Source: Haloferax massiliensis
Lineage (GTDB): Archaea > Halobacteriota > Halobacteria > Halobacteriales > Haloferacaceae
Assembly: GCF_001368915.1 (NCBI RefSeq)
Contig: NZ_CSTE01000001.1
Coordinates: 137,364 to 201,363, forward strand
Reading direction: 5' to 3'
Length of the DNA: 64,000 nt
Shown here one piece after another: positions 44,689 through 62,022 of this stretch. Under the pieces are notes generated by a model. That model was not told the origin of the DNA, made no database searches, and saw only the letters and a list, made by a program, of their open reading frames with translations. Numbering within the stretch: position 1 is the stretch's first letter; each line of letters begins with the position of its first letter. The translations under genes and the position numbers were made by a program.

Positions 44689-45621
44689 CTATTCTTCGTC
44701 ACCGAGGTAGTAATCGACACACGCGTCGAGGCCGTCTTCGAAGCTCCACTCGGGCTCCCAGCCGAGTGCTTTCGTCTTCGTCGCGTCGATGGCGTAGCGC
44801 TGGTCGTGGCCCGCGCGGTCTTCGACGAATTCGATTTGGTCTTCTGAGCCGCCAACTGCCTCAAGAATCTTCTCCGTCGTTTCGAGGTTCGACAGTTCGA
44901 CGCCGCTGCCGATGTTGTACACCTCGCCGATATCGCCCTCTCGGAGGACCACATCGAGCGCTGCACAGTTGTCTTCGACGTAAATCCACTCGCGGACGTT
45001 CGAGCCGTCGCCGTAGACCGGGAGCGTCTCGCCGTTCGCGGCGCGCTGGATGAACTTCGGAATGAGTTTCTCCGGGTGCTGCCGCGGGCCGAAGTTGTTG
45101 CAGGTTCGCGTGATGAGCGTCGGCAGGTCGTGGGTTTCCCGGTAGCTCTGGACGAGCAGGTCCGCACCGGCTTTCGTCGCCGAGTAGGGATTTCGCGGCG
45201 CGAGTGGGTCGTCTTCCGTGAACTTCCCGTCGTGAATCTCGCCGTACACCTCGTCGGTCGAAATCTGGAGGAACCGGTCGATGTCCGCATCGAGGGCGGC
45301 GTCGAGGAGCGTCTGCGTCCCCTGAACGTTCGTCGAGACGAACGGCTCGGCCCCACCGATGGAGCGGTCGACGTGCGACTCCGCAGCAAAGTTCACGATG
45401 ACATCGGCATCGGCCACGAGGTCGTCAACGAGCTCGCGGTCTCGGATGTCACCCTCGACGAGCCGATGGTTCGGGTGGCCGAGATAGCCGGCGAGGTTGT
45501 CACGTGATCCGGCGTACGTGAGTGCGTCGAGCGTGACGACTGAATCGTCGCCGGTATCGAGCAGATACCGCACGAAGTTCGAACCGATGAATCCGGCACC
45601 ACCAGTAACGAGTACGTCCAT
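44689..45621 (-). CDS. agl12: dTDP-glucose 4,6-dehydratase
   Basis: A 310-residue extended SDR enzyme of the RmlB type: NAD-binding MDVLVTGGAGFIGSNFVRYL, STDEVYGEIHDGKFTEDDPL and the catalytic YSATKAGADLL (Tyr-x-x-x-Lys), followed by TRTCNNFGPRQHPEKLIPKF. It converts dTDP-glucose to dTDP-4-keto-6-deoxyglucose, the second step of dTDP-rhamnose synthesis. H. volcanii Agl12 has this activity. The ATG at 45621 is set by the Rossmann strand and by a TATA about 25 bases upstream (leaderless). Confidence 0.92.
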   Translation of the reverse strand: MDVLVTGGAGFIGSNFVRYLLDTGDDSVVTLDALTYAGSRDNLAGYLGHPNHRLVEGDIRDRELVDDLVADADVIVNFAAESHVDRSIGGAEPFVSTNVQGTQTLLDAALDADIDRFLQISTDEVYGEIHDGKFTEDDPLAPRNPYSATKAGADLLVQSYRETHDLPTLITRTCNNFGPRQHPEKLIPKFIQRAANGETLPVYGDGSNVREWIYVEDNCAALDVVLREGDIGEVYNIGSGVELSNLETTEKILEAVGGSEDQIEFVEDRAGHDQRYAIDATKTKALGWEPEWSFEDGLDACVDYYLGDEE

Positions 45622-45640
45622 ATGCCCCCAACAGAGGCAG

Positions 45641-45656
45641 CATATATTTACATTTT
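45641..45656. promoter_or_regulatory. shared divergent TATA region of dehydratase and reductase genes
   Basis: A single AT-rich element (CATATATTTACATTTT) lies 20-28 bases from the dehydratase ATG (45621, minus) and 19-28 bases from the reductase ATG (45675, plus). Both leaderless genes appear to use it in opposite directions. Confidence 0.55.
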
Positions 45657-45674
45657 CATCAACACAACGAGTAC

Positions 45675-46577
45675 ATGTACGCATTCGTCATCGGCGCTAA
45701 CGGCTTGCTTGGGAGTGTCGTGGTCCAGACGCTCCGCGAGCAGGGTCACGAGGTTGTCGGCGGCTATCACTCCAAGGAGCCCGCCTTCGACTGCCCGCTG
45801 CATCAAGTCAATATCACAGATACTGAGCGGGTTGTTGCCCTCCTTGATGAGTACGAAGTTGATGTCGTCATCAACTGTGCTGCCTACACTGACGTGGATG
45901 GCTGTGAATCGAATCCCGAGTTGGCCATGGCCGTGAACGGAACCGCACCGGGTGACCTCGCGGCCGTGTGTGATGACCGCGAGATTTCGTTCGTTCACTA
46001 TTCGACGGATTACGTCTTCGACGGTGAGACAGACGGGTTTTACGAAGAAGGTGACGATCCAGCACCGATTCAGGAGTACGGCCGCTCGAAGCTCGCCGGC
46101 GAGCATGCTGTTCGTGACGTGAACCCCGATGGGCTCATTCTCCGCTTGTCGTTCGTCTATGGCGCACGCGGTGACACGGGCGACCTCGTCGGCTTTCCTC
46201 AGTGGGTCGCCTCGACGCTCGCTGCAGGCGAGACAGTCCCACTGTTCACCGACCAGACGATGACGCCCAGTCGGGCTGGCAACGTCGCCACGACGACGCT
46301 GGAACTGCTCGATTCAGGGTCGACAGGAACGTTTCATGTTGCGAGTCAGTCGGCCGTCACGCCCTACGAGTTCGGCGAGGCGATTTGTGGTGTGATTGAC
46401 GGCGATGCGACACTCATCGAGTCGTCGGTCATGGCTGACCTCGACCGCTCGGCTGCGAGGCCGCGGCGCTCGTGTCTCGACGTGTCGAACGTAGAAGGCG
46501 AACTCGGTCGCTCCCAACCGACGTTGGAAACCGACCTCACGGCACTCGAAGCCGCGTTCAGCGATTACAGTTCGTAG
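45675..46577 (+). CDS. agl14: dTDP-4-dehydrorhamnose reductase
   Basis: A 300-residue RmlD-type SDR: MYAFVIGANGLLGSVVVQTL dinucleotide loop, NCAAYTDVDGCESNPELAMAVNG, FVHYSTDYVFDG and catalytic YGRSKLAGEHAV. It reduces dTDP-4-keto-L-rhamnose to dTDP-L-rhamnose, the last step of the pathway, and H. volcanii Agl14 carries this role. It is divergent from the dehydratase gene; its 3' end overlaps the zinc-ribbon gene tail to tail by 13 bases. Confidence 0.9.
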   Translation: MYAFVIGANGLLGSVVVQTLREQGHEVVGGYHSKEPAFDCPLHQVNITDTERVVALLDEYEVDVVINCAAYTDVDGCESNPELAMAVNGTAPGDLAAVCDDREISFVHYSTDYVFDGETDGFYEEGDDPAPIQEYGRSKLAGEHAVRDVNPDGLILRLSFVYGARGDTGDLVGFPQWVASTLAAGETVPLFTDQTMTPSRAGNVATTTLELLDSGSTGTFHVASQSAVTPYEFGEAICGVIDGDATLIESSVMADLDRSAARPRRSCLDVSNVEGELGRSQPTLETDLTALEAAFSDYSS

Positions 46578-46746: not shown

Positions 46747-47820
46747 TTAGAGTTTCAGTTGGGAGTTCTCACCGACGACGAGGCGACGGCCCTCCGGGAG
46801 GAAGTCGTCCGCGCTCCCGATGTTCGCGCCCTTGCCGAGGAGGCTGTCGACGATGCGCCCGGAGGTGTTGATGCTCGATTCTCCGATGACGACCGAGTTC
46901 TCGATATGGACACCTTCGAGCGTCGAGTTCGGGCCGACGGACGTGTACGGACCAACATAGGTATCCGACTTGATGACTGCGCCATCAGCGATGGAGACCG
47001 GACCACGGACGACTGCGCCATCTTCGATGGTCGCTGACTCCGCGAGTTCGATGCGGCCATCGACCGTCGCATCGTCGCTGATGGTTCCCTGTTTCCGGAG
47101 CGATTTGTCCTCAAGGACGAGTTGGTTCGCTTCGAGGATGTCTTCTGGCTTGCCGGTGTCTTTCCACCACCCCTCGACGACGTGCGAGTCGATGGCGTAG
47201 CCGTCTTCGAGGAGCGACTGAATCGCGTCCGTGATTTCGAGTTCGCCACGCCACGAGGGTTCTAACTTCTCGATGGCGTCGAAGACCGCGGGCGAGAAGA
47301 CGTACATCCCGATGAGTGCGAGATTCGTCGGCGGCTCGTCCGGCTTCTCGATCAGCTGGGTGACGTTGCCCTGGTCGTCGACGTCCGCAATCCCGAACTG
47401 CTGTGGGTTCTCGACTTCTTGGAGCGCGATTCCCGCACCGAAATCACCCGACTCGAAGCTCTCGACGAGGTCGACGACGCCCTCTTTGAGGATGTTGTCG
47501 CCGAGGTACATCACGAAGTCGTCGTCACCGACGAAGTCTTTCGCACACCCTGCCGCGTGGGCGAGGCCGAGGGGATTGCCTTGGACGATGTAGGTGATTT
47601 CGACGCCGTAGTCAGAGCCATCGCCGAGGAGGTCTTGGATTTCCTCGCGACCTTTGTGGCCGAGAATGACGCCGATTTCGGTGATCCCCGCTTCTTTGAG
47701 GTCTTCGACCGCATATTCGAGGACGGGTTTATTCGCGACCGGGACGAGCTGCTTCGGCCCAGTGTGGGTAATGGGCCGGAGACGGGAGCCCGTGCCTCCT
47801 GAGAGAAGTACGCCTTTCAT
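46747..47820 (-). CDS. agl11: glucose-1-phosphate thymidylyltransferase
   Basis: A 357-residue nucleotidyltransferase: MKGVLLSGGTGSRLRPIT (the GGxGxRLxPxT nucleotide loop), EKPDEPPTNLALIGMYVFSP and a C-terminal left-handed beta helix (hexapeptide repeats about 240-350). It makes dTDP-glucose from glucose-1-phosphate and dTTP, the entry step to dTDP-rhamnose; H. volcanii Agl11 has this role. The long C-terminal beta helix is usual in archaeal members. The ATG at 47820 is chosen over an upstream in-frame ATG at 47853. Confidence 0.92.
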   Translation of the reverse strand: MKGVLLSGGTGSRLRPITHTGPKQLVPVANKPVLEYAVEDLKEAGITEIGVILGHKGREEIQDLLGDGSDYGVEITYIVQGNPLGLAHAAGCAKDFVGDDDFVMYLGDNILKEGVVDLVESFESGDFGAGIALQEVENPQQFGIADVDDQGNVTQLIEKPDEPPTNLALIGMYVFSPAVFDAIEKLEPSWRGELEITDAIQSLLEDGYAIDSHVVEGWWKDTGKPEDILEANQLVLEDKSLRKQGTISDDATVDGRIELAESATIEDGAVVRGPVSIADGAVIKSDTYVGPYTSVGPNSTLEGVHIENSVVIGESSINTSGRIVDSLLGKGANIGSADDFLPEGRRLVVGENSQLKL

Positions 47821-47933
47821 GAGTGTGTCTGTGATGTTATCATACTGACTCAAGTATGGTTCGCTTGCTCGAACTAGTTAGTGAAATTAGCTGTAGCAAA
47901 ATCTTATAAATCTTCCCCAGAAACGAGATTTCA

Positions 47934-49262
47934 ATGATTAAGGAGATTGGGAAGACAGGTCTGGAAAAAGTTCGACAGTTTCGGAGTCGAATGGCGTACG
48001 AACTGCGGGGTGGTGGAAGTTCTTCGATGGTCAATGTAGACGCCGAAAAGAACATCCTCGTCATCACTATTGATTGTCTTCGAGATGATCGGCTTTCGGT
48101 ATCTGGGTATCATCGTGAAACGACTCCCTTTCTCGATTCACTAAGCTCATACACACCAGCAATTGCTGCGGCACCGTGGACATTCAGTTCTGTACCATCT
48201 ATCCTTACAGGACTCCACCCACACAACCATGGCGCGGCATACCCAGATGACTCCGCCAGAAACCAGGATCTGAGTAATCCCCCGAATGGAATTCAAGACG
48301 GTGTCCCCACGCTTGCAGAGTTGCTTGATTCGGTAGGATACGAGACTCGATTTATCACCGCGGTTGGTACCGCAGCAATCCCCATGGAGGGCCGGTTTAA
48401 ATCTGTAAAACGACGCCATGATGCAGATGCTGAAGATGTTCTCTCAGAGATTCAGCGATGGTGGAATACCACATCTGGCCCGAAGTTCGGTTATGCACAA
48501 TTGGGAGATCTCCATGAGCCCTTACACGACCCCCCAACCGAGTATTTCGATGAGATACCAGACGTTGACGGGATTGACCGCTGGCGATTCACTTCCGGAG
48601 ATATTCAGAACGATGAGTTCGAACGATACCGTTCAGCAAGAAGGCTGCTGTACGATACGCTTCTTCGTTACGTCGATGAAGAGATTGAGCGCGTTCTCGG
48701 TGGCTTGGCTGAGCTTGATGATACAATCGTCGTCGTAACTAGTGACCACGGAGAGGAGTTTTGGGAGTACAAGTCGTTCGAAGAAGAGCATTTCGAGGAC
48801 TCCCGAGGTGTTAGCGGTGTTGGCCACGGTCATGCGCTTGTCCCTCCAGTTCTCGAAGTTCCGATTATAACCAACCTTGAATCGATTTTTGGGTCTACGA
48901 CACGTCGGAGTTCAACAGATATCGTCCCGACAATTCTCTCGGAGATGGATGCCACGGTGAATGTTGAGTTTGACGGAGAACCGTTGCAAGAACCTTCAAC
49001 TGGAGAGACTGCGTTACTCTCCCAAGAGGTTGCCTACGGTCCGAACCAAATTAGCGTTACTGAGGGCGGTAACCATCTCATCTACGTCCCAACAACAGAT
49101 AGCTCGGTCCTCATTAACTTTGAAACTGGTGAGCAAATTGATGACCCAGAGATTAAATCACGTCTCATGGGACATGTTCCACGTGAACGTGCCACTGGCT
49201 CATCTGTTGAACTATCTGACGACGTCCAAAAGCAGTTGTCCGACCTTGGATACGCTGAGTAG
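47934..49262 (+). CDS. alkaline-phosphatase-superfamily enzyme (sulfatase fold, Thr nucleophile)
   Basis: A 442-residue protein of the sulfatase/phosphoglycerol-transferase fold: ILVITIDCLRDDRLSVSGYH (first metal Asp), WTFSSVPSILTGLHPHNHG (nucleophile region) and VVVTSDHGEEFWE (metal Asp-His). In sulfatases the nucleophile position is Cys or Ser of C/S-x-P-x-R; here the aligned residue is Thr, as in phosphotransferases. It probably adds or removes a phosphoryl-linked group on the glycan. No signal peptide is evident, so it should act in the cytosol. It ends DLGYAE, a tail shared with the other three enzymes in the island. Confidence 0.78.
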   Translation: MIKEIGKTGLEKVRQFRSRMAYELRGGGSSSMVNVDAEKNILVITIDCLRDDRLSVSGYHRETTPFLDSLSSYTPAIAAAPWTFSSVPSILTGLHPHNHGAAYPDDSARNQDLSNPPNGIQDGVPTLAELLDSVGYETRFITAVGTAAIPMEGRFKSVKRRHDADAEDVLSEIQRWWNTTSGPKFGYAQLGDLHEPLHDPPTEYFDEIPDVDGIDRWRFTSGDIQNDEFERYRSARRLLYDTLLRYVDEEIERVLGGLAELDDTIVVVTSDHGEEFWEYKSFEEEHFEDSRGVSGVGHGHALVPPVLEVPIITNLESIFGSTTRRSSTDIVPTILSEMDATVNVEFDGEPLQEPSTGETALLSQEVAYGPNQISVTEGGNHLIYVPTTDSSVLINFETGEQIDDPEIKSRLMGHVPRERATGSSVELSDDVQKQLSDLGYAE

Positions 49263-49264
49263 CG

Positions 49265-49735
49265 TCAGCCGTGAATTTCAGCGTTCCAGTCGTACGGAAT
49301 CCGGTCGTCGTCGTACGGAATTCGCTCTTCGTCGGGGTCTTCGTAGTCATAGAGGTTCGTCGGGTAGTTGATGAGCAGCGACGGCTCGTCGCCGATAGCC
49401 TTGAATCCGTGCCAGCAGTCACCGGGGATGCGGATGACCTGTTGGTTGTGCTCGCCGATGACGAACGTGTCAAGTTCTCCCTGGGTAGGCGAGTCTTCGC
49501 GGTCGTCGTAGATGCCTACCGTGATGCGGCCCTTCGGACAGACGAAGTGGTCGATCTGGCCTTCGAGATGGCGATGCCAAGCCCTGACGACGCCGGGGTA
49601 CGTCATCGAGTAGTAGGACATCTCCGGGTCGATTTCGTATACGTCCCAGTCGCTGCGGAAGACTTCGACCAAGTGGCCCCGCTGGTCGGCGTTGACTTGG
49701 AGGTCGCGGACTTCGACGTCGTGAATGTTGGGCAT
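49265..49735 (-). CDS. agl13: dTDP-4-dehydrorhamnose 3,5-epimerase
   Basis: A 156-residue cupin of the RmlC type: VRDLQVNADQRGHLVEVFRS, YYSMTYPGVVRAWHRHLEGQ (catalytic His in AWHRH) and CWHGFKAIGDEPSLLINYPT. It epimerises C3 and C5 of dTDP-4-keto-6-deoxyglucose, completing the rhamnose set with the dehydratase, reductase and thymidylyltransferase in the window. H. volcanii Agl13 has this role. Convergent with the sulfatase-fold gene, two bases apart. Confidence 0.9.
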   Translation of the reverse strand: MPNIHDVEVRDLQVNADQRGHLVEVFRSDWDVYEIDPEMSYYSMTYPGVVRAWHRHLEGQIDHFVCPKGRITVGIYDDREDSPTQGELDTFVIGEHNQQVIRIPGDCWHGFKAIGDEPSLLINYPTNLYDYEDPDEERIPYDDDRIPYDWNAEIHG

Positions 49736-49838
49736 CTACTGTTAATTAGCTTGGTAGTCTATCTTAGTAGTAGCGGTCGTTAGTTGGGATAAAACGGACC
49801 ACGGACTATTTTATGAAGAGAGACAACCACACAACATA

Positions 49839-51356
49839 ATGGAAAGTGAATCCGAAGGGATTGCAGACATTATCCTGAGTAGTGGTTTATTTGCTTCAAG
49901 TGGGATGATATCTCGGTTCTTTGGCTTTTTAGGACACATAGCCATAGTACAGTCACTACCTCCAGATGTATTCGGGAACATAACCATCTCACAAGCAGTT
50001 GTCACAACAATCATCCCAATTGCTGTATTTGGGCTCGGAGATGGAATACCACGATTACTCGCAGGGTCAGATTCAGAAGCGTATGATAAAAAAATAATCT
50101 CCAGCGGACTTATCTCTGCTTCCGGAATTGGACTCACAGCAAGTATCGTGGTGTTCTTGGGAGCTCCAATAATTGCAGACGGTTTTAATAATCCATCAAT
50201 CACACCGTATCTATCTATACTTAGTATCCAGATATTCTTTGGAGTCGTTTGGGGGGCTCTACGAGGAACACTCCGTGGCTATCGACTTTCAAAAGCTCTT
50301 GCAATCTCTAAAGACATCGCACCAAAAGGAACGGCGTTAATTGTTTTAGGGCTATGCGTCTGGATCTTAGGTCCAGAGACAGGTGCTCTATCGTACTATC
50401 TTTCACTACCAATTATTTCAGCAGTTGTCGCTGCGGCGGCTATTTATTACTTAGTTGAATACAAACCCTCTCGACCATCTGCATCCCATACCAAGGAGCT
50501 ATTCTCTTTTTCCATACCCCTAGCTCTAAGCTCAACATTTGTTATATTAATGCTGAATGCAGACATGCTATTTTTAGGGTACCTTTCTAGTTCGACATCA
50601 GTAGGCTACTATCGGTCTGTTCGACCATTCTCACAATTAATTCTTATCGGATTAATGTCATCGGTCACGATTTACATGCCGTTAGTTACCGAATTCTTTG
50701 AGAGTGGTAGAAAAGATTCTGTCAGCCGAATATATACAGTCACTACAAAGTGGCTCGCAATTCTAACTTTTCCATTAGTTGGTGTTTTTGTCTTGTTTTC
50801 CCCAGAGGTTGTCGTTGGATTCCTTAGTGAAGAATACAAACCAGCAGCTATCGTACTCTCGATACTATCTATCGGGATGTACGGCCGAGTCTTTGTGGGT
50901 CCAAATGGAGCAACTACGCAAGCGATTGGCCGTCCTAAAATTGAATTTTACGCCGGAATACTCGGGGTTATAGTCAACATCTGCTTCAATATTGTTTTGA
51001 TTCCTTCATTTGGGATCGCTGGAGCAGCAATTGCGACCTCAATGGGGTTTACTGCATATAACATTCTTGAGTTGACGATCATCTATCGAGAAATCGGCGC
51101 GCACCCATTTTCGATGAATATGGTCAAGCCACTTATCCCTAGTACTATCCTTGGCTTTATCCTGTATTCTATACTCCCAGATGGCCTCTCTCTCCCAGCA
51201 TTAATTGGCGTCGGAATATTCTGGACACTTTGCCAGGTTCTCTTTGTGGTTGCCACCGATAGTTTTGATAAGATGGATCGGGATATCCTTCTTGAGATGG
51301 ATTCTGAATTGACAACCAAACTTATTTCCTACATTGACCGGGTTGAAAGATCATGA
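49839..51356 (+). CDS. agl15: polysaccharide flippase (Wzx/Agl15-like)
   Basis: A 505-residue protein with about 14 membrane helices of the MATE/MOP polysaccharide-exporter type, including GMISRFFGFLGHIAIVQSLP and ALSSTFVILMLNADMLFLGY. In H. volcanii Agl15 turns the lipid-linked glycan across the membrane before transfer to the S-layer protein. The gene is AT-rich compared with the rhamnose genes just upstream and overlaps the next gene by four bases (ATGA), so this part of the island may be a later arrival. Confidence 0.82.
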   Translation: MESESEGIADIILSSGLFASSGMISRFFGFLGHIAIVQSLPPDVFGNITISQAVVTTIIPIAVFGLGDGIPRLLAGSDSEAYDKKIISSGLISASGIGLTASIVVFLGAPIIADGFNNPSITPYLSILSIQIFFGVVWGALRGTLRGYRLSKALAISKDIAPKGTALIVLGLCVWILGPETGALSYYLSLPIISAVVAAAAIYYLVEYKPSRPSASHTKELFSFSIPLALSSTFVILMLNADMLFLGYLSSSTSVGYYRSVRPFSQLILIGLMSSVTIYMPLVTEFFESGRKDSVSRIYTVTTKWLAILTFPLVGVFVLFSPEVVVGFLSEEYKPAAIVLSILSIGMYGRVFVGPNGATTQAIGRPKIEFYAGILGVIVNICFNIVLIPSFGIAGAAIATSMGFTAYNILELTIIYREIGAHPFSMNMVKPLIPSTILGFILYSILPDGLSLPALIGVGIFWTLCQVLFVVATDSFDKMDRDILLEMDSELTTKLISYIDRVERS

Positions 51357-52696
51357 CGAGCGATGTCTTTCTACTGGTATTTGATACTCTTCGTCGCGAT
51401 TACATTGAACCATACTCTAAGAATGTATCGACGCCAGGGTTCTCCAAACTATTCGCAGATAGTATTGTTCTCGAAAAAGCCTATTCGACAGGATCGTGGA
51501 CGGTTCCAGCACATGGATCCCTATTCACCGGGAAGTATCCTTCAGAGCATGGTGCAACAGGGCTAACAAAAAAATTGCCAAGGGAACCAAAGACAATAGC
51601 AGAAGTCACATCAGACAATGGTTACGAGCCGGTTGCGATCTCAACAAATCCATGGGTAAGTCCTGACTTTGGATTCTATCGTGGGTTTGGTAGTCAGAGT
51701 GAGTTCATTTATCCAGAGCTACCTTTTGCCGACGTTGGCTCCCCATGGGACGCAGTTAATGAGAACGATGATCTTCTGCGGAGTTTCTCAAAAGTTCTCC
51801 GGTGGAGTACAGAAAAAAACACGACAAAGAGACTAATAAAAGCGATGTACGCATATCTCTTTTTTGATCAAAAAGTTCCAAGTGCAAATGAAGTCACAGA
51901 TCAATTGACGTCTTCACTTGACTCAGTCTCGGATTCGATGCCTGTATTTGGATTTGTGAATTATATGGATGCACATGAACCATATTTTGACGATGAAAGA
52001 GACTCACAGATCAAGTGGAACCTACATTCAGTAGGCAGCTCACCCGAGATTGGGCAGAACACAATACGAGACGGGTACAAATCTTCAGTGGAGTCTCTTG
52101 ATAATGGAGTTAGTTATCTCGTTGAACAATTGCGTGATCAAGACAGATATGATGATGCTTTAATTATTGGTGTCGCAGACCACGGTCAGAGTCTTGGAGA
52201 ACATGATTACTGGGGCCATGGAACCTATCTGTATGATGAGCTACTACATGTCCCAGCGTTTGTTAAACCACCTGGAGGGAGTCAATCCGATGAATGGATC
52301 AACCAACCATTTTCGATTCGGAGAGTATTTGATCTGGTTTCACAGGCAACTGATGGTGAAATCGATGATTTGAGGCTTTGGCTTCAAAATGCTACTGAAA
52401 GAGTTGTTGCAGCAGAATCTACTGGACCACACATGGATATCGAACACACATTAGACGCGGTTTCAGAGGCAGGATATTGGAAATTCTATGGCGGATCATG
52501 GAAGGCTTCAAAATATTTAGACGATGGTGAACTAACTATTCACCAAAATCAAGAGGATATACCAAAAGAAGAGATATATGAAGATGTGAATAAATATGTG
52601 GATGATAATGATATATCAACCACGAAGATGAGCGATAACAATAGCGGCTTAAGTTCGGATATCGAAAAAAGGTTAGAACATTTAGGGTATAAATGA
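51353..52696 (+). CDS. alkaline-phosphatase-superfamily enzyme, Thr nucleophile (second)
   Basis: A 447-residue relative of the enzyme at 47934-49262: DVFLLVFDTLRRDYIEPYSK, STGSWTVPAHGSLFTGKYPS (Thr aligned with the sulfatase Cys) and GVADHGQSLGEHDYWGHG (metal ligands). It overlaps the flippase stop (ATGA) and is translated with it. It ends RLEHLGYK. No signal peptide, so presumably it works on cytosolic or inner-leaflet glycan intermediates. AT-rich codon use like its neighbours. Confidence 0.78.
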   Translation: MTSDVFLLVFDTLRRDYIEPYSKNVSTPGFSKLFADSIVLEKAYSTGSWTVPAHGSLFTGKYPSEHGATGLTKKLPREPKTIAEVTSDNGYEPVAISTNPWVSPDFGFYRGFGSQSEFIYPELPFADVGSPWDAVNENDDLLRSFSKVLRWSTEKNTTKRLIKAMYAYLFFDQKVPSANEVTDQLTSSLDSVSDSMPVFGFVNYMDAHEPYFDDERDSQIKWNLHSVGSSPEIGQNTIRDGYKSSVESLDNGVSYLVEQLRDQDRYDDALIIGVADHGQSLGEHDYWGHGTYLYDELLHVPAFVKPPGGSQSDEWINQPFSIRRVFDLVSQATDGEIDDLRLWLQNATERVVAAESTGPHMDIEHTLDAVSEAGYWKFYGGSWKASKYLDDGELTIHQNQEDIPKEEIYEDVNKYVDDNDISTTKMSDNNSGLSSDIEKRLEHLGYK

Positions 52697-52743
52697 GACA
52701 ATGATACAAGTCAGGATGAGCGATTATTGGTTGAGTATTATCC

Positions 52744-54414
52744 ATGACTAATCTGAGTATGAATAAAATCAAAAAATTACAAATCACTGTTGCATGTCTC
52801 TCGATTACTACTGTCATTTTAAGTATTCGCCAGAGTTCTCTGGGATTCATAATTCTTGGTGTTGCCGTACTTTTATTCACTACTATCAGAGGGTCTCAAG
52901 TCGGTATTGCAGGTTTAGCTATTTCAACAATCTTACTATTTCCGGGAGCTCAAGCGGGTTGGCTCTATCGTCGAGGGAGTCACAACGCAGCATATGTTGC
53001 AATGCAGATCCAAGAGAATGGTTGGCCGTTAACAATTGATGTTGTGCGTCGGGCTTTCCCAGCAACTCCGCTTCTCCATATGTTGACTATTGTACTTAGC
53101 AAAGTGACAAACTTGTCAATCATGCCAGGCCCGACTGGCCAAACCCTGATTACATATCTGCTATCTATAATACTCCCTGCAATGGCAGTGATCATGGTCG
53201 CGGCCATTGCTCACCGATATAGCAAAGCTCCAATTTCATTAGCCCTTCTACCAGTCTTAGCTTGGATCCCAGGATTCATCGACAAAACGGCATTCAATCG
53301 ACAATCGTTTGGTTTTGTGATATTTCTAATAGTTGCGCTAATTTGTGTGCGGCAGGTCTCTGGATCAAAGGGTTGGCGTTGGAAGATTCTATTAATACTC
53401 TCAATTGTAACACTCGTTGGTGGACATCACTTCTCGGCGATAATGGGACTACTCATCATCGCGATCGCAGGAATGACTTCTGTTACTGCAAAATGCCTAG
53501 AGACTGGAAAGTTTAAACTAACGTCGGGTTATCAGTTCGGTGTTGTATTCTTGCTTGGCGTATCAGTATTTGCGACGTGGTTTATTATTCAAGGACTAGG
53601 GGCTGGACTAATCGTCAGCCTATTAGTTGTTGACCCGTTTACAAGTCCAAATGTTCCGGAGTGGATAATTGAGCAATCAGTCACCCCCTCACAGATTTCT
53701 ATGATTTTATCAGGGCCGGCACTTTGGTTGTTTCAAGTAGTACTCGCAATTGGGTGCATGAGTTTATTGTATATCGCCATTTCGGATGACAAACAGTTTC
53801 GACCAGTTCTTTTTGTTACCTTCGTTGGTGCAACTATTGCGGTTTTAGGTGTCTTATCACGCTTCATCACGGTCAATACGCTTGCACGAATATTCACGTT
53901 CTTTGTATTTGTTGGTGGCTGGGCTGCTATAGACGGATATCAACAGATACAAACAGAACATCGCTGGCTCAAGCGACTACCTACTATCGCAGTCACAATA
54001 CTTCTTGTTATTGGAATAATGTCAGTTCCCATATATTATGTTTCGGATGTTCAACCAACGTATGAGAACAGGGAGACAGACCAACAATATCCCTCACACC
54101 TATATGCAACTGGTGACTTTCTATCGGACTATCCTACAGAGAAGTCGCTACTTATTGGTGATGATAATGTTGAACACGTTGTTGGAACACAAGCCTCAAT
54201 GCCAACAGAGCAACGTGGCGAAACAATTAGCCAAGGCAGAATCCCAGAGGAAGGAGTGTTAGTCCTTCGAGACTATAATAATGAACTATATTTTGGCTCA
54301 ACTGTTGAATTCAATTACTTTGCAATCAAGATTGGTGACAAATACGAAACCCTGAATAGGAGAAATACGATGATTTATGACAATGGTAATGAATCAATAC
54401 TCCTGAACAAGTGA
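52744..54414 (+). CDS. polytopic membrane protein, possible GT-C-type glycosyltransferase or polymerase
   Basis: A 556-residue protein with about 11-13 membrane helices through residue about 435 and a soluble C-terminal tail of roughly 120 residues. Near the start an inter-helix loop holds WLYRRGSHNAAYVAMQIQEN, compatible with a GT-C-like external loop, but no signature can be asserted. Gene context (flippase, glycosyltransferases) argues for a role in glycan assembly. A second in-frame ATG at 52759 is an alternative start. Confidence 0.55.
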   Translation: MTNLSMNKIKKLQITVACLSITTVILSIRQSSLGFIILGVAVLLFTTIRGSQVGIAGLAISTILLFPGAQAGWLYRRGSHNAAYVAMQIQENGWPLTIDVVRRAFPATPLLHMLTIVLSKVTNLSIMPGPTGQTLITYLLSIILPAMAVIMVAAIAHRYSKAPISLALLPVLAWIPGFIDKTAFNRQSFGFVIFLIVALICVRQVSGSKGWRWKILLILSIVTLVGGHHFSAIMGLLIIAIAGMTSVTAKCLETGKFKLTSGYQFGVVFLLGVSVFATWFIIQGLGAGLIVSLLVVDPFTSPNVPEWIIEQSVTPSQISMILSGPALWLFQVVLAIGCMSLLYIAISDDKQFRPVLFVTFVGATIAVLGVLSRFITVNTLARIFTFFVFVGGWAAIDGYQQIQTEHRWLKRLPTIAVTILLVIGIMSVPIYYVSDVQPTYENRETDQQYPSHLYATGDFLSDYPTEKSLLIGDDNVEHVVGTQASMPTEQRGETISQGRIPEEGVLVLRDYNNELYFGSTVEFNYFAIKIGDKYETLNRRNTMIYDNGNESILLNK

Positions 54415-54468
54415 GATTTGCTAAACCTGTTGAATTTCGGAACAACGATCCGCAAAATATGAATTAAT

Positions 54469-54593
54469 GGCTCTGTTGAAACCCTCTTTCCGTCTTGCGA
54501 TTTGTTGAGAGACTAGTTTTCACTGTGACCCACGGAAACTAGCCAGAAAGAGCGCTCTCTCCAATATCAACGCTGAAGGATTTCAACAGAGCC
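54469..54593. mobile_element. 125-bp MITE, copy 2
   Basis: Same length and terminal repeats as the element at 36765-36889 and differing at only a few internal positions. Its own 8-bp target duplication GAATTAAT lies at 54461-54468 and 54594-54601. It sits in the gap between the membrane-protein gene and a glycosyltransferase. Confidence 0.9.
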
Positions 54594-54601
54594 GAATTAA
54601 T

Positions 54602-54821
54602 GACTTTAGAACCACGTTTCATTCCTTTCGTAAAAGCGTTCAGAACCTTTTTTCTGTGGGTACTCAGCATTAAAACCAAACATAGAACTCCAAAACCGAC
54701 GTTATCTAGTGTTTGAATAGCTAATTTCTATCGATCATTGTGATCTGGTTTAGAATCGTAGATCGAGCGCTGTGACAAGTATAATTACCAATGAACGTAT
54801 CATATCTGGCAAGATCTATCG
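54602..54821. other. AT-rich gap downstream of the MITE
   Basis: No gene is supported. It must contain the promoter of the glycosyltransferase starting at 54822. Confidence 0.4.
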
Positions 54822-55796
54822 ATGACAGAGTACGATACGTCAATCGTTATCCCGACTTACAATGATGAAGCTACTCTTGCTGCTTGCTTGGAGTCTCTAG
54901 AGTCAATGAATTACCCAGGGTCATTCAATACTATTATTGTTGATGGTCACTCGAAAGATGATACAATCAGTATTGCAGAAAAGTACGACTGTGACGTAAT
55001 ATTTGAAGATAAAGGGACAATCAGCTATGCACGCGAACTGGGGGTGGAAAAATCAGATAGTGAATTTGTTGCATTCACCGACGCTGACTGTGTTGTCCCC
55101 GAAAATTGGCTCTCAACACTAATTAATCACTTTGACGACAATGGTAAAGTGGCTGCTGTTGGTGGGCCAAACATCACTCCAGAAGATGATTCTACTTTTG
55201 CGAAGTCAGTTGGTGATGTCCTTTCCTTGTTGAGTGGTGCTGGTGCAAGATATGGATTTGAAGGTAAAGAGACACGCGAGATCTATCATAACCCAACATG
55301 CAATGTTGTCTATCGTCGCGAGGTGATTGAAGAAGTTGGTGGGTTCAATCACGATCTTATCACCGTTGACGACGAAGAGATGGACTACAGAATTCGAGAA
55401 CAGGACTACAAAATACTCTACACCCCAGAAGCCGAAGTTCTTCACTATCGACGACCGAGTTGGAAGTCGTTTACGAAGATGGGGTATCGGTATGGACTTG
55501 GCCGGGCACAAGCGACAAAGTTACATCCAGAGATGGGCGAGTGGTTCCATTTTGCTCCATCATCGATAATTCTTCTTCTAGCTCTCTTTCTTGGAAATGC
55601 TGTTAGATCACGCTCTTGGGTTAAGAGATTCGCTGGAACACTATCCCTCGGGGTTATGGGGATAGTCAGTATGAGTGTATTCCTCTCAGCGAAACGTAAC
55701 CGATGGACTCAACTCCCGGTTTACGTAATACTAATCTCGATCTGGTTCTGGTCTTGGGGGGTTGGGTTTATCAAGGGTCTCTGCCAGAATACGTGA
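54822..55796 (+). CDS. family 2 glycosyltransferase
   Basis: A 324-residue GT2 with catalytic GT-A domain (about 1-240) containing SIVIPTYNDEATLAACLESL, VDGHSKDDT and the DxD-like FTDADCVV, then two or three C-terminal helices. It should add a sugar to a lipid-linked glycan on the inner face of the membrane. The C-terminal basic patch (ARELGVEK and RNRW) and AT-rich composition match the other island genes. Convergent with the next gene, 10 bases apart. Confidence 0.82.
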   Translation: MTEYDTSIVIPTYNDEATLAACLESLESMNYPGSFNTIIVDGHSKDDTISIAEKYDCDVIFEDKGTISYARELGVEKSDSEFVAFTDADCVVPENWLSTLINHFDDNGKVAAVGGPNITPEDDSTFAKSVGDVLSLLSGAGARYGFEGKETREIYHNPTCNVVYRREVIEEVGGFNHDLITVDDEEMDYRIREQDYKILYTPEAEVLHYRRPSWKSFTKMGYRYGLGRAQATKLHPEMGEWFHFAPSSIILLLALFLGNAVRSRSWVKRFAGTLSLGVMGIVSMSVFLSAKRNRWTQLPVYVILISIWFWSWGVGFIKGLCQNT

Positions 55797-55806
55797 AAAT
55801 TTGTTC

Positions 55807-56970
55807 TTAGACGAGTCTCCCTATGAGTCTATCATATTCTTCAAAAAGATTACCCCAGTCATATTGTTTTCCTAGCTCTTGTGCATTTGACCCTAAATCA
55901 TCCCGAAGTGATTTAGAAGTAGTGAGCTGCTCAATTGCTTCAATGATTCCCGCAGTTGAGTCTCTAACGAGCGCTGTCTCCCCATCTTCAACACTAAGAC
56001 CTTGAATACCAACAGAAGTAGTCACAATGGGAAGACCTGCTGCCATGTAATCTAACATCTTCAATTTCGTTCCAGAACCCATAGAGAGAGGGCAAAGGGC
56101 GATGTCAGCATACCCGAGACACGCACCAAGATCATCAACAAACCCAGGAGTCAACACATTGGGCTGATCCGTCGATGGGGGATTTCGACCGATCAACAGG
56201 AATTGCATCTCTGGATACGTTGGTGCAATTTCGTTAATTATTATCTGTGCAGCATCTTTGTTTGGGTCGTAGTCATACGCCCCAACGAAAACGCAAGATT
56301 GCTTCGAGGTGTCCAGACCACCAATGCTTGGATGTTGAGTAGATGACTTCTCTGTCCCAATTTTTGAGTAGTCAGTTCCATTCGGGATAACAGAGTATGT
56401 CGTTGAAGACAGATCAAACGACTCGCAATCAGATTCAGACATAAAAACGACAGCATCTGCATTGTCAATCATCCGTTGTTCGAATTCTTGATGACGGTCG
56501 ACAATCGAATCTCGAACTAATTTGGGGATACTCCTTCCATCTAAGAACTGCTCGACGACTCGAAATTCGGCATTATGTTTGTTGATTAGAAACGGAGCAT
56601 CAGATCTGCGCGCAATCGTAAGGGCAGCAGGCGATAGCTGTGGACACTCACTAACTACTAAATCTGGCTCAAGTCCTTTTGAGTTAATTGCATCAAGACA
56701 TCTTTCCAAGAATATCTCGTTCAATATATCTATTCTAGCCGCCATTAGAAGTGTCCAGAAATAAATTCGGCTCACTTTCGAATTGAGCCATGGGGTAGCT
56801 ATGTCGAGTGTTTCAACTGTCTCTTCCGGCGGCGTATCACCATCCCAAGGTGCTGCTACCCACGAAGTACCGAGTTCAGCGAATTTTTTTCCGCATTCCC
56901 AAACTCGCCGATCTGCCCCACTTCCGGGAGGATACGGTGGCTTCCTGTGTAATTGAAGAATATCTACCAT
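55807..56970 (-). CDS. family 4 (GT-B) glycosyltransferase
   Basis: A 387-residue GT-B enzyme. The N-terminal Rossmann half starts MVDILQLHRKPPYPPGSGAD, and the C-terminal half carries GRNPPSTDQPNVLTPGFVDD and the donor-binding SMGSGTKLKMLDYMAAGLPI, then TTSVGIQGLSVEDGETALV. It transfers a nucleotide-activated sugar. The start at 56970 lies two bases after the stop of the upstream sulfatase-fold gene (56972), so both are in one operon. Confidence 0.82.
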   Translation of the reverse strand: MVDILQLHRKPPYPPGSGADRRVWECGKKFAELGTSWVAAPWDGDTPPEETVETLDIATPWLNSKVSRIYFWTLLMAARIDILNEIFLERCLDAINSKGLEPDLVVSECPQLSPAALTIARRSDAPFLINKHNAEFRVVEQFLDGRSIPKLVRDSIVDRHQEFEQRMIDNADAVVFMSESDCESFDLSSTTYSVIPNGTDYSKIGTEKSSTQHPSIGGLDTSKQSCVFVGAYDYDPNKDAAQIIINEIAPTYPEMQFLLIGRNPPSTDQPNVLTPGFVDDLGACLGYADIALCPLSMGSGTKLKMLDYMAAGLPIVTTSVGIQGLSVEDGETALVRDSTAGIIEAIEQLTTSKSLRDDLGSNAQELGKQYDWGNLFEEYDRLIGRLV

Positions 56971-56971
56971 T

Positions 56972-58306
56972 CTATAAATATCCCAAATCTTCAAGCCGGC
57001 CTTCAACGTCCTCGCCTAAGTCATCATCAATTAATTCGGAGTCAACATCTAATTCAGATAGCCGTTTCTCAGCTATCGATTGAACCAGCTCTCCACCGGC
57101 ATCTGTAGGTGTTTCCGTGATTTGATCGCTAGTGATCTCAAATAATCTTTTTTCACCACGGATTTGATCAAGTTCGAACAACCACTTATCGGACCGAACA
57201 CCGATGACTGCGTCTCCTTCGACTTGATGTTCTGCAATGATATACTCCCTATTTTCTTGGCTAGGTATGATTCCTTCATATGCCTCAGGAGCATCAACCT
57301 CGACAGAGTCGAAGATAATGCCGGGAATATCCATCAGACTAATCAGATCAGTTGTAGTCTCACGCAATTTAGCAGGACCATTTGCAACAAGGAGTGGAAC
57401 CTGTAGTAGTTCGTCATACATCCGCTCTGGTTTTCCATAGAGGTCATGATCACCAAACAACTCGCCATGATCTGAAGTGTAAATAATAAGAGTATCTTCA
57501 AGTTGCCCCATCTGTTTCAGTTTATCAAGTATACGTTTGATCTGCTCATCCGTGTACTTGATAGCAGCACGATACAGTCGTTCTAGAGCATCCAACTCTT
57601 CAGTACCAAGTGAGTCCGGGGAACGAATTAATGCAGAGTACCACTCTGAAACTTCTTCCTGTGTGACATTTTTGACCCCAAACTCTGTGCGGTATTTCTC
57701 TGGAGGATAGCATGGATGGTGAACATCCATATAATGAGCCCAAGCGAAGAAGTCTGATTCAACATCATCAATCCAAGTAATACAATCGTCCGTTATTACT
57801 TCTGCACTAACGTATGGACGTGGTTTTCCACGGAATAGCTGGTAAATGTCCTTAATTCGCTTGGTAAAGTTGACTTTATCGTCAATCTTTCGAAGTTTTG
57901 GGTGGTTTACCTCGATTCCGCGTGGAAATATCTTTGTTGCAATGCCCATAAGCGGATTCTGATAATCTTCAAATGTGTCAAATCCGTCATCATAATTGAA
58001 GTGGTGGGAAAGGAACGGATTTGATTGAAAACCGGCAGTATGGAATCCATTTTTCTGCATTTCAGTCGCCAGCCGTGGACGATCTTCATTAAGCGGTCCA
58101 AGCCCACCGCAAGATAGTGGTAACGTCCCAGTTAGAATACCAGGGAATGAGACTGCTGTGGCAGGTCCCGTCGCAAACGCAGACTCGAAGGAAATTCCTT
58201 GTTGAGCCAACTCCGCCGCAGCAGGTGTATTTGTCCAGTCATTATCTAGCGGGAGATAATCTTCCCTGAGCGAGTCCACTGTGATTAGCAGGACGTTCTT
58301 GCTCAT
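56972..58306 (-). CDS. alkaline-phosphatase-superfamily enzyme, Thr nucleophile (third)
   Basis: A 444-residue enzyme with NVLLITVDSLREDYLPLDND, GPATAVSFPGILTGTLPLSC (Thr in the nucleophile position), a mid-domain with HYMDVHHPCYPPEKY, and IIYTSDHGELFGDHDLYGKP (metal Asp-His). It ends RLEDLGYL, the tail common to the four enzymes here. Lacking a signal peptide, it should act in the cytosol. First gene before the GT4 at 55807-56970. Confidence 0.78.
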   Translation of the reverse strand: MSKNVLLITVDSLREDYLPLDNDWTNTPAAAELAQQGISFESAFATGPATAVSFPGILTGTLPLSCGGLGPLNEDRPRLATEMQKNGFHTAGFQSNPFLSHHFNYDDGFDTFEDYQNPLMGIATKIFPRGIEVNHPKLRKIDDKVNFTKRIKDIYQLFRGKPRPYVSAEVITDDCITWIDDVESDFFAWAHYMDVHHPCYPPEKYRTEFGVKNVTQEEVSEWYSALIRSPDSLGTEELDALERLYRAAIKYTDEQIKRILDKLKQMGQLEDTLIIYTSDHGELFGDHDLYGKPERMYDELLQVPLLVANGPAKLRETTTDLISLMDIPGIIFDSVEVDAPEAYEGIIPSQENREYIIAEHQVEGDAVIGVRSDKWLFELDQIRGEKRLFEITSDQITETPTDAGGELVQSIAEKRLSELDVDSELIDDDLGEDVEGRLEDLGYL

Positions 58307-58356
58307 GTGTAAGTTAGATGTTGTTAGCTATTTATAGAATCTTTCCATTATATGGG

Positions 58357-59538
58357 TTATACCCAATCCAGTATTGTTTGGCGAAGTTCCGCTGAAATCT
58401 GTGACCAGTCATATTTGTTTTTAACAATTTCTTGAGCAGATTCGCCAATCGACTTCTTGAGTTCATCATCTTGATGCAATCGCTGGATTGATGACTGAAA
58501 CTCTGACAACTCTGAGATAATGATCTCTTCACCATCACTCACGTCAAGTCCACGAACACCAAATGGTGTTGAGATCACTGGAAGTTCCCAATTAAAATAA
58601 TCGAATAGCTTCACATTCGTTCCTCCGCCAGATTTCATCGGATGAACGGCAAAATCAGCAGCTTGAAAGTACGGCTCGATCTCTTTAACGAAACCGACTT
58701 GTTCAACATTGTGGGTTTCTTTGTCGACTTCTTCACAGGCAGTCCCAACTGCGAGAAATTGGATGCTTTCATCATTAACCTCAGCTGCAATATCATGAAG
58801 AAACTTGAGTGCCTCAATGTTTGGGGTGTGCTTACTTCCTACGAAGAGAACAAGAGATGTATCTTCTCCAATGTCATGCTGGTTTCGGATAGACTGGCGG
58901 TTAGTTGCACTGTCCGTCGGTGAATTATTGGCATATGTTCCGTTTGGAGCAATGAGAATCTCCGCCTCGCTGAACTCTCGGCTATAAATGTCTTTATCTC
59001 GTTCTGATGTACAAACGACTAGGTCAGCGTGGTCAACAGCCTTACGTTCGGATTTCTTGACCCACCTATAAAACAATTGGTGTAATGGTGAACCAGACGA
59101 AAGAGCAGAGAATCGCTCTGGTTCGTAGTTGTGGCTGGAGTAGACCAATAGGCCATCATCTAAAATAGAATCAACTGCAGAAACTTGCCAAGGTCCTTCA
59201 ACAAACACAATATCAGCATCATCAACGAGTTGATGTAAGGTCTTAGTTGGTGTAAGTTCAAGTGCTGGTCCAAGAAGGACATATGGAAAGTCGAAGAGAA
59301 CTGGAAGACTAGCTAGGTCATGGAGAGGGTGATTAACTCTAAGTTCTCGATACGAACCCTCAATTTCAATTGAGGATAGAAACTTGCCTGAGAAGTAGTT
59401 ACGTGGGTCTCCGCCCTGACAGTAACGTGTGACGTCATCTTTGGAAGAGACGAACGCTGTCATTAGACCATGTTTTCTATGATCTCCACCAGTATTTGGT
59501 GGGTGGACACGGTTTGGAACAACTTGAAGAATATTCAT
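58357..59538 (-). CDS. family 4 (GT-B) glycosyltransferase
   Basis: A 393-residue GT-B protein starting MNILQVVPNRVHPPNTGGDH. The donor-binding region in the C-terminal half includes MKSGGGTNVKLFDYFNWELP and TPFGVRGLDVSDGEEIIISE, similar to the GT4 at 55807-56970, so the two are probably paralogues acting on successive sugars. It is downstream of, and two bases from, the sulfatase-fold gene at 59540-60460. Confidence 0.82.
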   Translation of the reverse strand: MNILQVVPNRVHPPNTGGDHRKHGLMTAFVSSKDDVTRYCQGGDPRNYFSGKFLSSIEIEGSYRELRVNHPLHDLASLPVLFDFPYVLLGPALELTPTKTLHQLVDDADIVFVEGPWQVSAVDSILDDGLLVYSSHNYEPERFSALSSGSPLHQLFYRWVKKSERKAVDHADLVVCTSERDKDIYSREFSEAEILIAPNGTYANNSPTDSATNRQSIRNQHDIGEDTSLVLFVGSKHTPNIEALKFLHDIAAEVNDESIQFLAVGTACEEVDKETHNVEQVGFVKEIEPYFQAADFAVHPMKSGGGTNVKLFDYFNWELPVISTPFGVRGLDVSDGEEIIISELSEFQSSIQRLHQDDELKKSIGESAQEIVKNKYDWSQISAELRQTILDWV

Positions 59539-59539
59539 C

Positions 59540-60460
59540 TTAAGATAAGTACCCTAATTGCTTCAGGTGTTCTTCAACGGTTTCGTTATCTACCTCATCG
59601 TCACTATGTTTCGTTGAACCTGTAGTGATATCCTTACGTGGTCCATTTTGGTATTCTAACCAAGGAACTTTTGTCAACTCTTCAGTGTAGATTCCTTGTG
59701 GATGCCCCCACTCACGAATAGGGATTGGAGATGAGCGTTCATCAAGCATGTTTCCATGATCTGAGGTCACAACCGTTTTACCAGAGAGTTGAGTCAGGAG
59801 CTTCTCAACATGCGGTAGAGCAATACGAAGATTACTGCGATAGGCTTCCCTTATTTCCTCTTCACTAACGTCAATCTGACCTCTCATCAAACGCATCCAA
59901 AAACCAGGTGTGTCTGGGTCAAATGCGTCATCAATCTCAATGTCTGAATCAATAAACGGATAGTGCGGTTGTATGAAGTGGATTATCAAACGTTTATTTG
60001 GATACTGTTTCGATGCTTGAAGGCCACAGTGAACCATACTTTCCGGAAGAACAGTATGATTTTGTTCGTCCCAGAATTCGTCTTCCGACCAAACATTTTC
60101 TACATCATAGAACGAGGTATTGAGTGATCCAGAATTATGGTAAAACTGGCCATTTCCAGTTACGTATACCGTGTCTAACATAGATCGATCCGCAAGATTC
60201 CCATGAAGAAATTCAACAGTCATTGAGCCAAGAGACTCAACTTCGGATAATTGGCCGGGTAAATTGGACTCCCTCTCAAAAGTGTCGTATCGGCAACCAT
60301 CGAGAATAATCAGATTGTCCCAGTCTTGGTCCATGAAATTCAGTCCGCGATGATTAAACTCGGTCTCACGTAACTTCGTATGATAGAGCCGATTAATCGC
60401 TCTCGCAAATAGCTCTGGGTTAGCAAGGGCAATACCAATCTTCTTTGACATTCCACTCAT
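59540..60460 (-). CDS. alkaline-phosphatase-superfamily protein, truncated-type (fourth)
   Basis: A 306-residue protein, 130-140 residues shorter than the other three: LIILDGCRYDTFERES in place of the first metal Asp block, LGSMTVEFLHGN in the nucleophile region, and TVVTSDHGNMLDER with the metal Asp-His. It ends HLKQLGYLS. Overlap with the GT2 stop (60460) by one base places it in the same operon. The shorter form may lack a cap domain. Confidence 0.7.
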   Translation of the reverse strand: MSGMSKKIGIALANPELFARAINRLYHTKLRETEFNHRGLNFMDQDWDNLIILDGCRYDTFERESNLPGQLSEVESLGSMTVEFLHGNLADRSMLDTVYVTGNGQFYHNSGSLNTSFYDVENVWSEDEFWDEQNHTVLPESMVHCGLQASKQYPNKRLIIHFIQPHYPFIDSDIEIDDAFDPDTPGFWMRLMRGQIDVSEEEIREAYRSNLRIALPHVEKLLTQLSGKTVVTSDHGNMLDERSSPIPIREWGHPQGIYTEELTKVPWLEYQNGPRKDITTGSTKHSDDEVDNETVEEHLKQLGYLS

Positions 60461-61356
60461 TACGGGTATCGTCCTCGGCCTTGTTTATTCAATATACCGT
60501 CTACAGTACCTTGAGTGAGTCCAATTAGACCATCAATGTTCTGAGATTTCATCACCATCAAAAATTGTACGAATACCCAATTCAGGTATTGCCACACAAA
60601 AAGGAAGATAGACATCTCGTGGTTATATTTGTAGTACAGTAACCAACGATTCCGTGCAGTATAATAGGTCAAGGTTCTATTTAGGTCCCCTCCACTACTA
60701 TTGCTACTTTTGTGATATACCCTACAATTAAGAATGGTCAGCATCCTGAATTTCTCAGATATATCGTATGCAAATGCAACATCTTCACGATATATGAAGT
60801 AACGCTCAGGCAATAATCCGTATTCATCAAATACGTCCGTAGAGATGAGAGTACTACACAGCGGGAGGTATTCGTTTTCAACAAACTGTTCTGGTTTTTC
60901 TGAGATACATTTATGATGCGTAGAGTGACCAGATCCCCGATCCAGTTCACCTTTAGTGAACCATTCCGTTTCCTTGTCCGGGTACTCAAAGACTTGAGGA
61001 GTTATACAACCTACAGATTCCATTTCGAAGTATGGCAGTAGTTTCTCCAAAATTGAGAAATCTTCGATCACGACATCGTTATTCAGAATCCATGTGAAAT
61101 CTGCCCCATGGTCTACAGCCCAAGAGATGCCCGCATTCATTCCTCCAGAGAATCCACGATTACGATCTAACTCAACAAATACAACCTCAGGAAATGTGTT
61201 CTGTAGTCTCAAAAGGGAATCATCAGTAGATCCATTGTCTACAATGACAATATCATGATTTTTATAGGATATTTTCTGCAGAGAGTCTACACAGTCTCGT
61301 GTGTCTTCAAAGTTATTCCAATTCAGCACGACCGAGACGACGTGAGAACTACTCAT
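60460..61356 (-). CDS. family 2 glycosyltransferase (rhamnosyltransferase-like)
   Basis: A 298-residue GT2 with SVVLNWNNFEDTRDCVDSLQ, VDNGSTDDSLLRLQ, NRGFSGGMNAGISWAVDHGA and WILNNDVVIED (DxD-like). The RNRGFSGGMN block is usual in rhamnosyltransferase-type GT2 enzymes, which fits the dTDP-rhamnose genes nearby. The C-terminus has one or two hydrophobic segments. It begins the minus-strand operon of three genes. Confidence 0.82.
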   Translation of the reverse strand: MSSSHVVSVVLNWNNFEDTRDCVDSLQKISYKNHDIVIVDNGSTDDSLLRLQNTFPEVVFVELDRNRGFSGGMNAGISWAVDHGADFTWILNNDVVIEDFSILEKLLPYFEMESVGCITPQVFEYPDKETEWFTKGELDRGSGHSTHHKCISEKPEQFVENEYLPLCSTLISTDVFDEYGLLPERYFIYREDVAFAYDISEKFRMLTILNCRVYHKSSNSSGGDLNRTLTYYTARNRWLLYYKYNHEMSIFLFVWQYLNWVFVQFLMVMKSQNIDGLIGLTQGTVDGILNKQGRGRYP

Positions 61357-61951: not shown

Positions 61952-62022
61952 TGACACACTCACACGGAAGCTCGAAAGAATCTGTCGAACAGTTTGTGCC
62001 AACTCAATCGAGGCGGCTGTAA
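61951..62022 (+). CDS. possible 23-aa leader ORF coupled to cas7-like gene
   Basis: The ATG at 61951 opens 23 codons ending at TAA 62020-62022, which overlaps the cas7-like ATG by one base (TAATG). This stop-start overlap is typical of translational coupling. The ORF begins at the base of the alternative hairpin of the structured leader. The peptide is polar and resembles no family. Confidence 0.4.
   Translation: MTHSHGSSKESVEQFVPTQSRRL

Follow-up and report, generated by a model that had tools for sequence, protein, structure and literature searches.

A stretch of 64,000 nucleotides from Haloferax massiliensis (GCF_001368915.1, contig NZ_CSTE01000001.1, 137,364-201,363 of the forward strand; hereafter the window) contains a glycosylation island with four genes for sulfatase-fold proteins, here called S1-S4. 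A sequence-only reading of the window had taken them for transferases of phosphoryl-linked groups, and all four open reading frames are present where that reading located them. We lean towards another function: S1-S4 may well be cytosolic enzymes of sulfatase fold that transfer sulfate to glycans via a Thr-sulfate. Addition of sulfate is likelier than its removal, or than addition of phosphate, because two relatives in Halobacterium salinarum are needed for glycan sulfation. The fold, the active-site residues, the missing membrane segments, the gene setting and the kinship of S4 with the candidate for one of these relatives come from the present analysis; we infer that S1-S4 sulfate glycans as the relatives do, through a covalent step and inside the cell.

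Active site and fold of S1-S4

The nucleophile position of sulfatases is occupied by Thr in all four proteins (T83 in S1, T50 in S2 and in S3, T81 in S4), which extends to the fourth what had been noticed in three. In HMMER alignments T50 of S2 lies opposite the Ser or Cys of 6pt6 and 6pt4, and T50 of S3 opposite the Cys of 4upk. The nucleophile sites of S1-S4 lack a CxPxR motif, as the sequence-only reading had observed, and an ordinary sulfatase role was rejected in the absence of Cys/Ser-x-Pro-x-Arg. The same reading saw no signal peptide, in agreement with the lack of any Kyte-Doolittle segment above 1.6 in S1-S4 (judged by hydropathy alone). Its warning against annotation as sulfatases is probably right too, since Thr is not known to be converted to formylglycine. 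On a contig other than that of the island, the host genome encodes Cys sulfatases of two types, one of them (locus L001) about 4 kb from the gene of a formylglycine-generating enzyme (FGE); a missing maturation system therefore does not explain the Thr residues of the island.

Nor is Thr a chance occurrence, because 111 of 123 homologues with this column filled carry Thr or Ser (89 Thr, 22 Ser, 12 Cys). The set began as 149 matches, reduced to 126 non-redundant rows of at least 250 aa, three of which are gapped at the nucleophile column; six CSPTR rows were counted as Cys after correction of a one-column MAFFT shift. The first metal ligand is Asp in 120 of the 123, including S1-S4 and both candidate sulfotransferases described below, and Glu in three. 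Alignment with OpgB and sulfatases, proposed earlier as a check, gave a divided answer. E. coli OpgB, EptA, EptB and EptC all pair a Glu ligand with a Thr nucleophile, the E. coli sulfatases YidJ and AslA both pair Asp with Cys or Ser, and S1-S4 pair Asp with Thr, sharing the nucleophile with the former and the ligand with the latter. The LtaS/OpgB/EptA phosphodiester transferases thus resemble S1-S4 in fold and Thr nucleophile, but the E. coli members have a Glu ligand and membrane helices (3, 5, 5 and 3 hydrophobic segments above 1.6 in OpgB, EptA, EptB and EptC) and S1-S4 have neither. Formylglycine sulfatases share the fold, Asp ligand, DH motif and PHxP region with the island enzymes, but S1-S4 lack the Cys/Ser of C/SxPxR. 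Phosphonate monoester hydrolases likewise share with S1 the fold (VIA Z 31.8) and an Asp ligand; their formylglycine is made from Cys.

S1, S2 and S3 match Pfam Sulfatase (PF00884) at 100.6, 97.6 and 156.2 bits, against a cut-off of 25 bits. S4 falls under that cut-off (16.2 bits, E 0.0069), and its predicted sulfatase fold is confirmed by a confident AlphaFold model (predicted local distance difference test score 90.2, predicted template modelling score 0.90) and by profile comparison, in which hhalign aligned the S4 family with the S1-S3 type at E 1.9e-22 and placed T81 of S4 opposite T83 of S1. The S1 model (predicted local distance difference test score 86.9) is closest to the sulfatase SpAS2, and its nearest structures are sulfatases and phosphonate monoester hydrolases (VIA Z 34.7 down to 30), with YejM-type domains at about 31. 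In hhalign the S1-S3-type profile aligned over 400 columns with a small set of 5 sulfatases (2.6e-51), and over 281 columns with an equally small Ept/Opg set of 4 sequences (4e-16).

How could such a site transfer sulfate? In enzymes of the superfamily, the phosphoryl or sulfuryl group is handed on while bound covalently to the nucleophile as an ester. For release of sulfate, sulfatases require formylglycine, and their Cys-to-Ser mutants can be trapped as a sulfate ester. In S1-S4 the sulfuryl group of an activated donor would pass to the enzyme Thr at the Asp/Thr/Asp-His metal site; a hydroxyl on a sugar attached to dolichol phosphate would then accept it, ahead of glycan export by the flippase. 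With no formylglycine there would be no hemiacetal route for sulfate release, so that a covalent ester could await its acceptor; at a metal site with Asp, a Thr or Ser nucleophile would hold the ester until a sugar hydroxyl attacks. The lack of membrane segments, together with the gene setting, suggests that the enzymes work in the cell interior, on the glycan still joined to its lipid.

Relatives in Halobacterium salinarum

The aglB cluster of H. salinarum encodes three alkaline-phosphatase-superfamily proteins, VNG1056C, VNG1057C and VNG1063H, the first two named Agl30 and Agl31 (PMC11980604). According to the available text of that report, deletion of VNG1056C or VNG1057C lowered the di-sulfated glycan 250-fold and more than 50-fold, respectively, the double deletion lowered either sulfated peptide more than 300-fold, and the two proteins are needed to sulfate separate sugars. 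Expression of either in Hfx. volcanii yielded a +80 form of its own glycan, and sulfate in the H. salinarum glycan is backed by nuclear magnetic resonance and by earlier work of others cited there (PMC11980604). Deletion of VNG1063H, whose best BLAST match is a lipoteichoic acid synthase-family protein, is described in the same text as leaving sulfation unchanged. Sulfation in H. salinarum has been placed at the dolichol-phosphate stage (PMC4335974, available part). The main text of PMC11980604 makes no mention of threonine, serine, nucleophile, active site, formylglycine or 3'-phosphoadenosine 5'-phosphosulfate (PAPS). Among the 12 of 71 literature matches listed, no other dealt with Agl30 or Agl31.

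One genome of the comparison, G018, is H. salinarum: its bacteriorhodopsin is 100% identical over 260 aligned residues, and one stretch matches H. salinarum plasmids at 18,001 of 18,001 bases. Its single locus with three such genes (L051) encodes products of 326 aa, an adjacent 459 aa and 475 aa, which quite probably correspond to VNG1056C/Agl30, VNG1057C/Agl31 and VNG1063H. The assignment draws on adjacency, length, the hydrophobic N-terminus (residues 23-41 of the 326 aa protein, compared with a published transmembrane segment at 21-39 of VNG1056C) and published BLAST figures. The match is tempered by a further, solitary relative of the 326 aa protein on a separate G018 contig. An ISH8 element (L051:1-605) opens the contig of the three genes, which lie within 1125-8525, and the H. 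salinarum island may be rearranged between strains.

Candidate Agl30 and candidate Agl31 carry Asp and Ser, and candidate VNG1063H carries Glu and Thr. The three Glu rows of the homologue set include the last and are in, or near-copies of, one clade; that the Glu residues keep to the clade of the candidate for a protein whose deletion had no effect on sulfation (PMC11980604, available text) favours sulfate transfer by S1-S4. Like S1-S4, Agl30 and Agl31 are superfamily proteins encoded in a glycosylation cluster among glycan-assembly genes, and the two candidates share the Asp ligand, the DH motif and the lack of CxPxR. S4 is 30% identical to candidate Agl30 over 297 aa and belongs to the same family (alignment A1, 24 of 26 family rows; a further alignment, A2, holds 50 sequences). 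The N-terminal hydrophobic stretch of candidate Agl30 is absent from S4.

Within the S4/Agl30 family, 13 of the 26 rows have Thr and 13 Ser, and the tree requires at least five Thr/Ser changes; the clade of S4 itself is Thr and its nearest outside sequences are Ser. Thr alone therefore does not set the chemistry. In the long type, which includes S1-S3 (97 rows, 72 at 80% identity), Ser appears in all 6 members of the Agl31 clade and otherwise only on one long branch; all others, S1-S3 among them, have Thr apart from the Cys sulfatases. Because S1-S3 fall outside the Agl31 clade, the case for S4 as a sulfotransferase is the firmest of the four, and those for S1-S3 are weaker. Among 80 named loci found via a neighbouring glycosyltransferase, 31 have at least one such gene; the 51 genes comprise 38 Thr, 4 Ser and no Cys, with 9 not scored.

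Alternative functions and the sulfate donor

Several observations weigh against sulfate transfer, and some of them suit the proposal of the sequence-only reading, that S1-S4 decorate the glycan with phosphate, phosphoglycerol or another phosphoryl-linked group, as LtaS, OpgB and EptA would. The best structural neighbour of the S4 model is EptA (VIA Z 15.5, compared with 14.3 or less for sulfatases and 13.9 for the sulfatase BT1596), the phosphoglycerol transferase GacH is among its Foldseek matches, and the S4 profile does not separate the sulfatase and Ept/Opg sets (7.5e-6 and 8.1e-7). Both candidate sulfotransferases have Ser where S1-S4 have Thr, the Ser/Thr split of the long type tracks clades with S1-S3 outside that of candidate Agl31, and the Thr-type candidate VNG1063H is the one without an effect on sulfation. 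The gene order at the G018 locus differs from that of strain NRC-1 in the available part of PMC4335974. None of the publications consulted assays a Thr-type protein. Moreover, SO3 and HPO3 differ by 9.5 mDa, which the published mass-to-charge values, given to two decimals, cannot resolve.

Phosphoryl transfer nevertheless seems unlikely. Thr is a weak marker of it, and was rejected as proof, given the Asp/Glu column and the exchange of Thr and Ser; the first ligand of S1-S4 is Asp, not Glu, and known lipid-donor enzymes have the membrane segments that S1-S4 lack. The S1 model and the S1-S3 profile are nearer to sulfatases, and one literature search for archaeal phosphoglycerol glycans listed only a review of oral bacteria. 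Loss of sulfated glycans on mutation, which the sequence-only reading had named as evidence contrary to its proposal, is what the published H. salinarum deletions produced (PMC11980604, available text), though in other proteins, of which both candidates carry Ser and the candidate Thr paralogue gave no effect. Transfer onto the glycan stands as the likelier role; metal ligand, topology and relatives lend the phosphoryl chemistry no support. Proteins with the Glu and Thr of OpgB and EptA occur elsewhere in haloarchaeal islands (L069:4658-6070, L068:5501-6913 and L051:1125-2552) and by their residues would be better candidates for phosphoryl transfer than S1-S4.

Less probable again is a hydrolase function, in which S1-S4 would trim sugar nucleotides or lipid-linked intermediates as phosphatases or phosphodiesterases within the cell, or as sulfatases of promiscuous activity. 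S1-S3 do match Pfam Phosphodiest (1.3e-6, 9e-15 and 4.3e-8), Asp with Thr is also the pattern of the two-metal enzymes PafA and NPP, and S3 retains the sulfatase Lys (K292). However, no second metal site of the NPP type (DxxxH) was seen in the motif region, which was inspected by eye only, the alternation of S1-S4 with glycosyltransferase genes suits transferases better, and the published relatives are required for addition of a group, not its removal. Decay, or a scaffold role without catalysis, is very improbable for any of the four: S4 is short and below the Pfam cut-off, but every one of them retains its metal and nucleophile residues, and D54, D234, H235 and H253 of S4 are invariant in 24 of 24 family rows.

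If S1-S4 are sulfotransferases, what is their donor? A further point against this function is that no credible ATP sulfurylase, adenosine 5'-phosphosulfate (APS) kinase or classical sulfotransferase, and hence no PAPS synthesis route, was found in eight haloarchaeal genomes, among them H. salinarum with its documented sulfated glycan (PMC11980604, available text). ATP sulfurylase (PF01747) had no match in the eight, and CysD (TIGR02039) none above cut-off; matches below it occur in all eight, and those of the window's genome fall on two PAPS_reduct proteins and were rejected. APS kinase (PF01583) gave a match of about 24 bits over some 50 of 152 positions in every genome, one having a second weak match; in the window's genome the match was rejected as an FtsY-like SRP54 GTPase (PF00448, 7.4e-68), and the other seven score similarly. 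Sulfotransfer_3 (PF13469) was absent from the eight genomes, the window's included (PF00685 and PF03567 were not searched), and the remaining Pfam matches of S1-S4 include no PAPS-binding sulfotransferase domain. Since APS kinase, the ATP sulfurylases described so far and classical sulfotransferases seem to be missing from the genomes examined, the donor might not be PAPS from the established pathway. A tentative and rather doubtful extension is that haloarchaea use such a donor to sulfate surface glycans in a ping-pong sulfuryl transfer, with enzymes from a branch of the sulfatase superfamily whose nucleophile is Ser or Thr. The host genome has tandem PAPS_reduct-family (PF01507) proteins (L173:6909-7886 and 8009-8962), a possible lead to haloarchaeal sulfate activation.

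The island and its surroundings

The island comprises rmlABCD-type genes, one flippase, five glycosyltransferases and S1-S4 (Table 1). The minus-strand run reads GT2-S4-GT4-S3-GT4, and this alternation of sulfatase-fold and glycosyltransferase genes favours a role in glycan assembly by sulfate transfer. The stop codon of the upstream GT2 gene and the start of S4 overlap by one base (TAATG), and those of the flippase gene and S2 overlap as ATGA. S1 lies between the RmlA and RmlC genes, as does its 93% identical copy in Hfx. gibbonsii (locus L055). The low-salt cluster of Hfx. volcanii holds rhamnose genes, a flippase and Agl7, which is required for glycan sulfation (PMC3871713, available part); this too favours sulfate transfer by S1-S4, and from similar cluster content S1 might be an Agl7 orthologue. 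The available passages on Agl7 name no protein family for it.

Table 1. Genes of the island and its edge, with the putative nucleophile codons, in window coordinates
Feature	Coordinates	Strand	Match or residues
S1, sulfatase-fold protein, 442 aa	47934..49262	+	PF00884 1.3e-28; D47, T83, D271-H272, H298
S2, sulfatase-fold protein, 447 aa	51353..52696	+	PF00884 1.1e-27; D11, T50, D276-H277, H289
S3, sulfatase-fold protein, 444 aa	56972..58306	-	PF00884 1.6e-45; D11, T50, D279-H280, K292
S4, short sulfatase-fold protein, 306 aa, candidate Agl30 family	59540..60460	-	D54, T81, D234-H235, H253
Codon ACA, S1 T83, putative nucleophile	48180..48182	+	
Codon ACG, S2 T50, putative nucleophile	51500..51502	+	
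Codon ACA, S3 T50, putative nucleophile	58157..58159	-	
Codon ACT, S4 T81, putative nucleophile	60218..60220	-	
GT2 glycosyltransferase	60460..61356	-	PF00535 1e-16
GT4-type glycosyltransferase, between S4 and S3	58357..59538	-	PF13692 7.3e-16
GT4-type glycosyltransferase, after S3	55807..57006	-	PF13692 5.6e-18
GT2 glycosyltransferase	54822..55796	+	PF00535 5.9e-28
Polysaccharide flippase (putative Wzx/Agl15-like role)	49839..51356	+	PF01943 7.7e-22; overlaps S2
RmlC-like dTDP-sugar 3,5-epimerase	49265..49735	-	PF00908 1.9e-16
RmlA-like nucleotidyltransferase	46747..47853	-	PF00483 1.3e-60
RmlD-like reductase	45675..46577	+	PF04321 4.8e-69
RmlB-like dehydratase	44689..45684	-	PF16363 2.9e-77
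GT2 glycosyltransferase beside island, conserved in Haloferax	42910..44151	+	PF00535 1.2e-24

The GT2 glycosyltransferase beside the island is 88-94% identical in five of the compared Haloferax loci. The window also carries an S-layer glycoprotein gene (about 25022-27583) whose product is 86% identical to that of Hfx. volcanii. Within the island, 52744-54414 (+) encodes a membrane-like protein of 556 residues with no match in Pfam, NCBIfam or PADLOC, which by its position could be a polymerase or ligase. Just outside, 61911-62888 (+) weakly matches the type III CRISPR effector Csm3 (PADLOC 2.4e-4), and an overlapping reading frame (62885-63625, +) has no match. In other Haloferax islands, superfamily proteins that look by eye like the NPP type adjoin sulfatase-fold genes (L056:1512-3080, 3171-4793 and 7598-9151; L059:15367-16965).

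S1-S4 are, on balance, plausibly the Thr form of the kind of glycan sulfotransferase that Agl30 and Agl31 introduced in 2025 (PMC11980604, available text). Such proteins are publicly annotated as sulfatases, and in an island setting may run the reverse reaction. If hydrolases, sulfuryl transferases and phosphoryl transferases of this one fold can be told apart by Thr or Ser versus Cys together with Asp versus Glu, the charge modification of glycans could become readable from archaeal genomes, and haloarchaeal sulfate activation for sulfated glycans would become testable.

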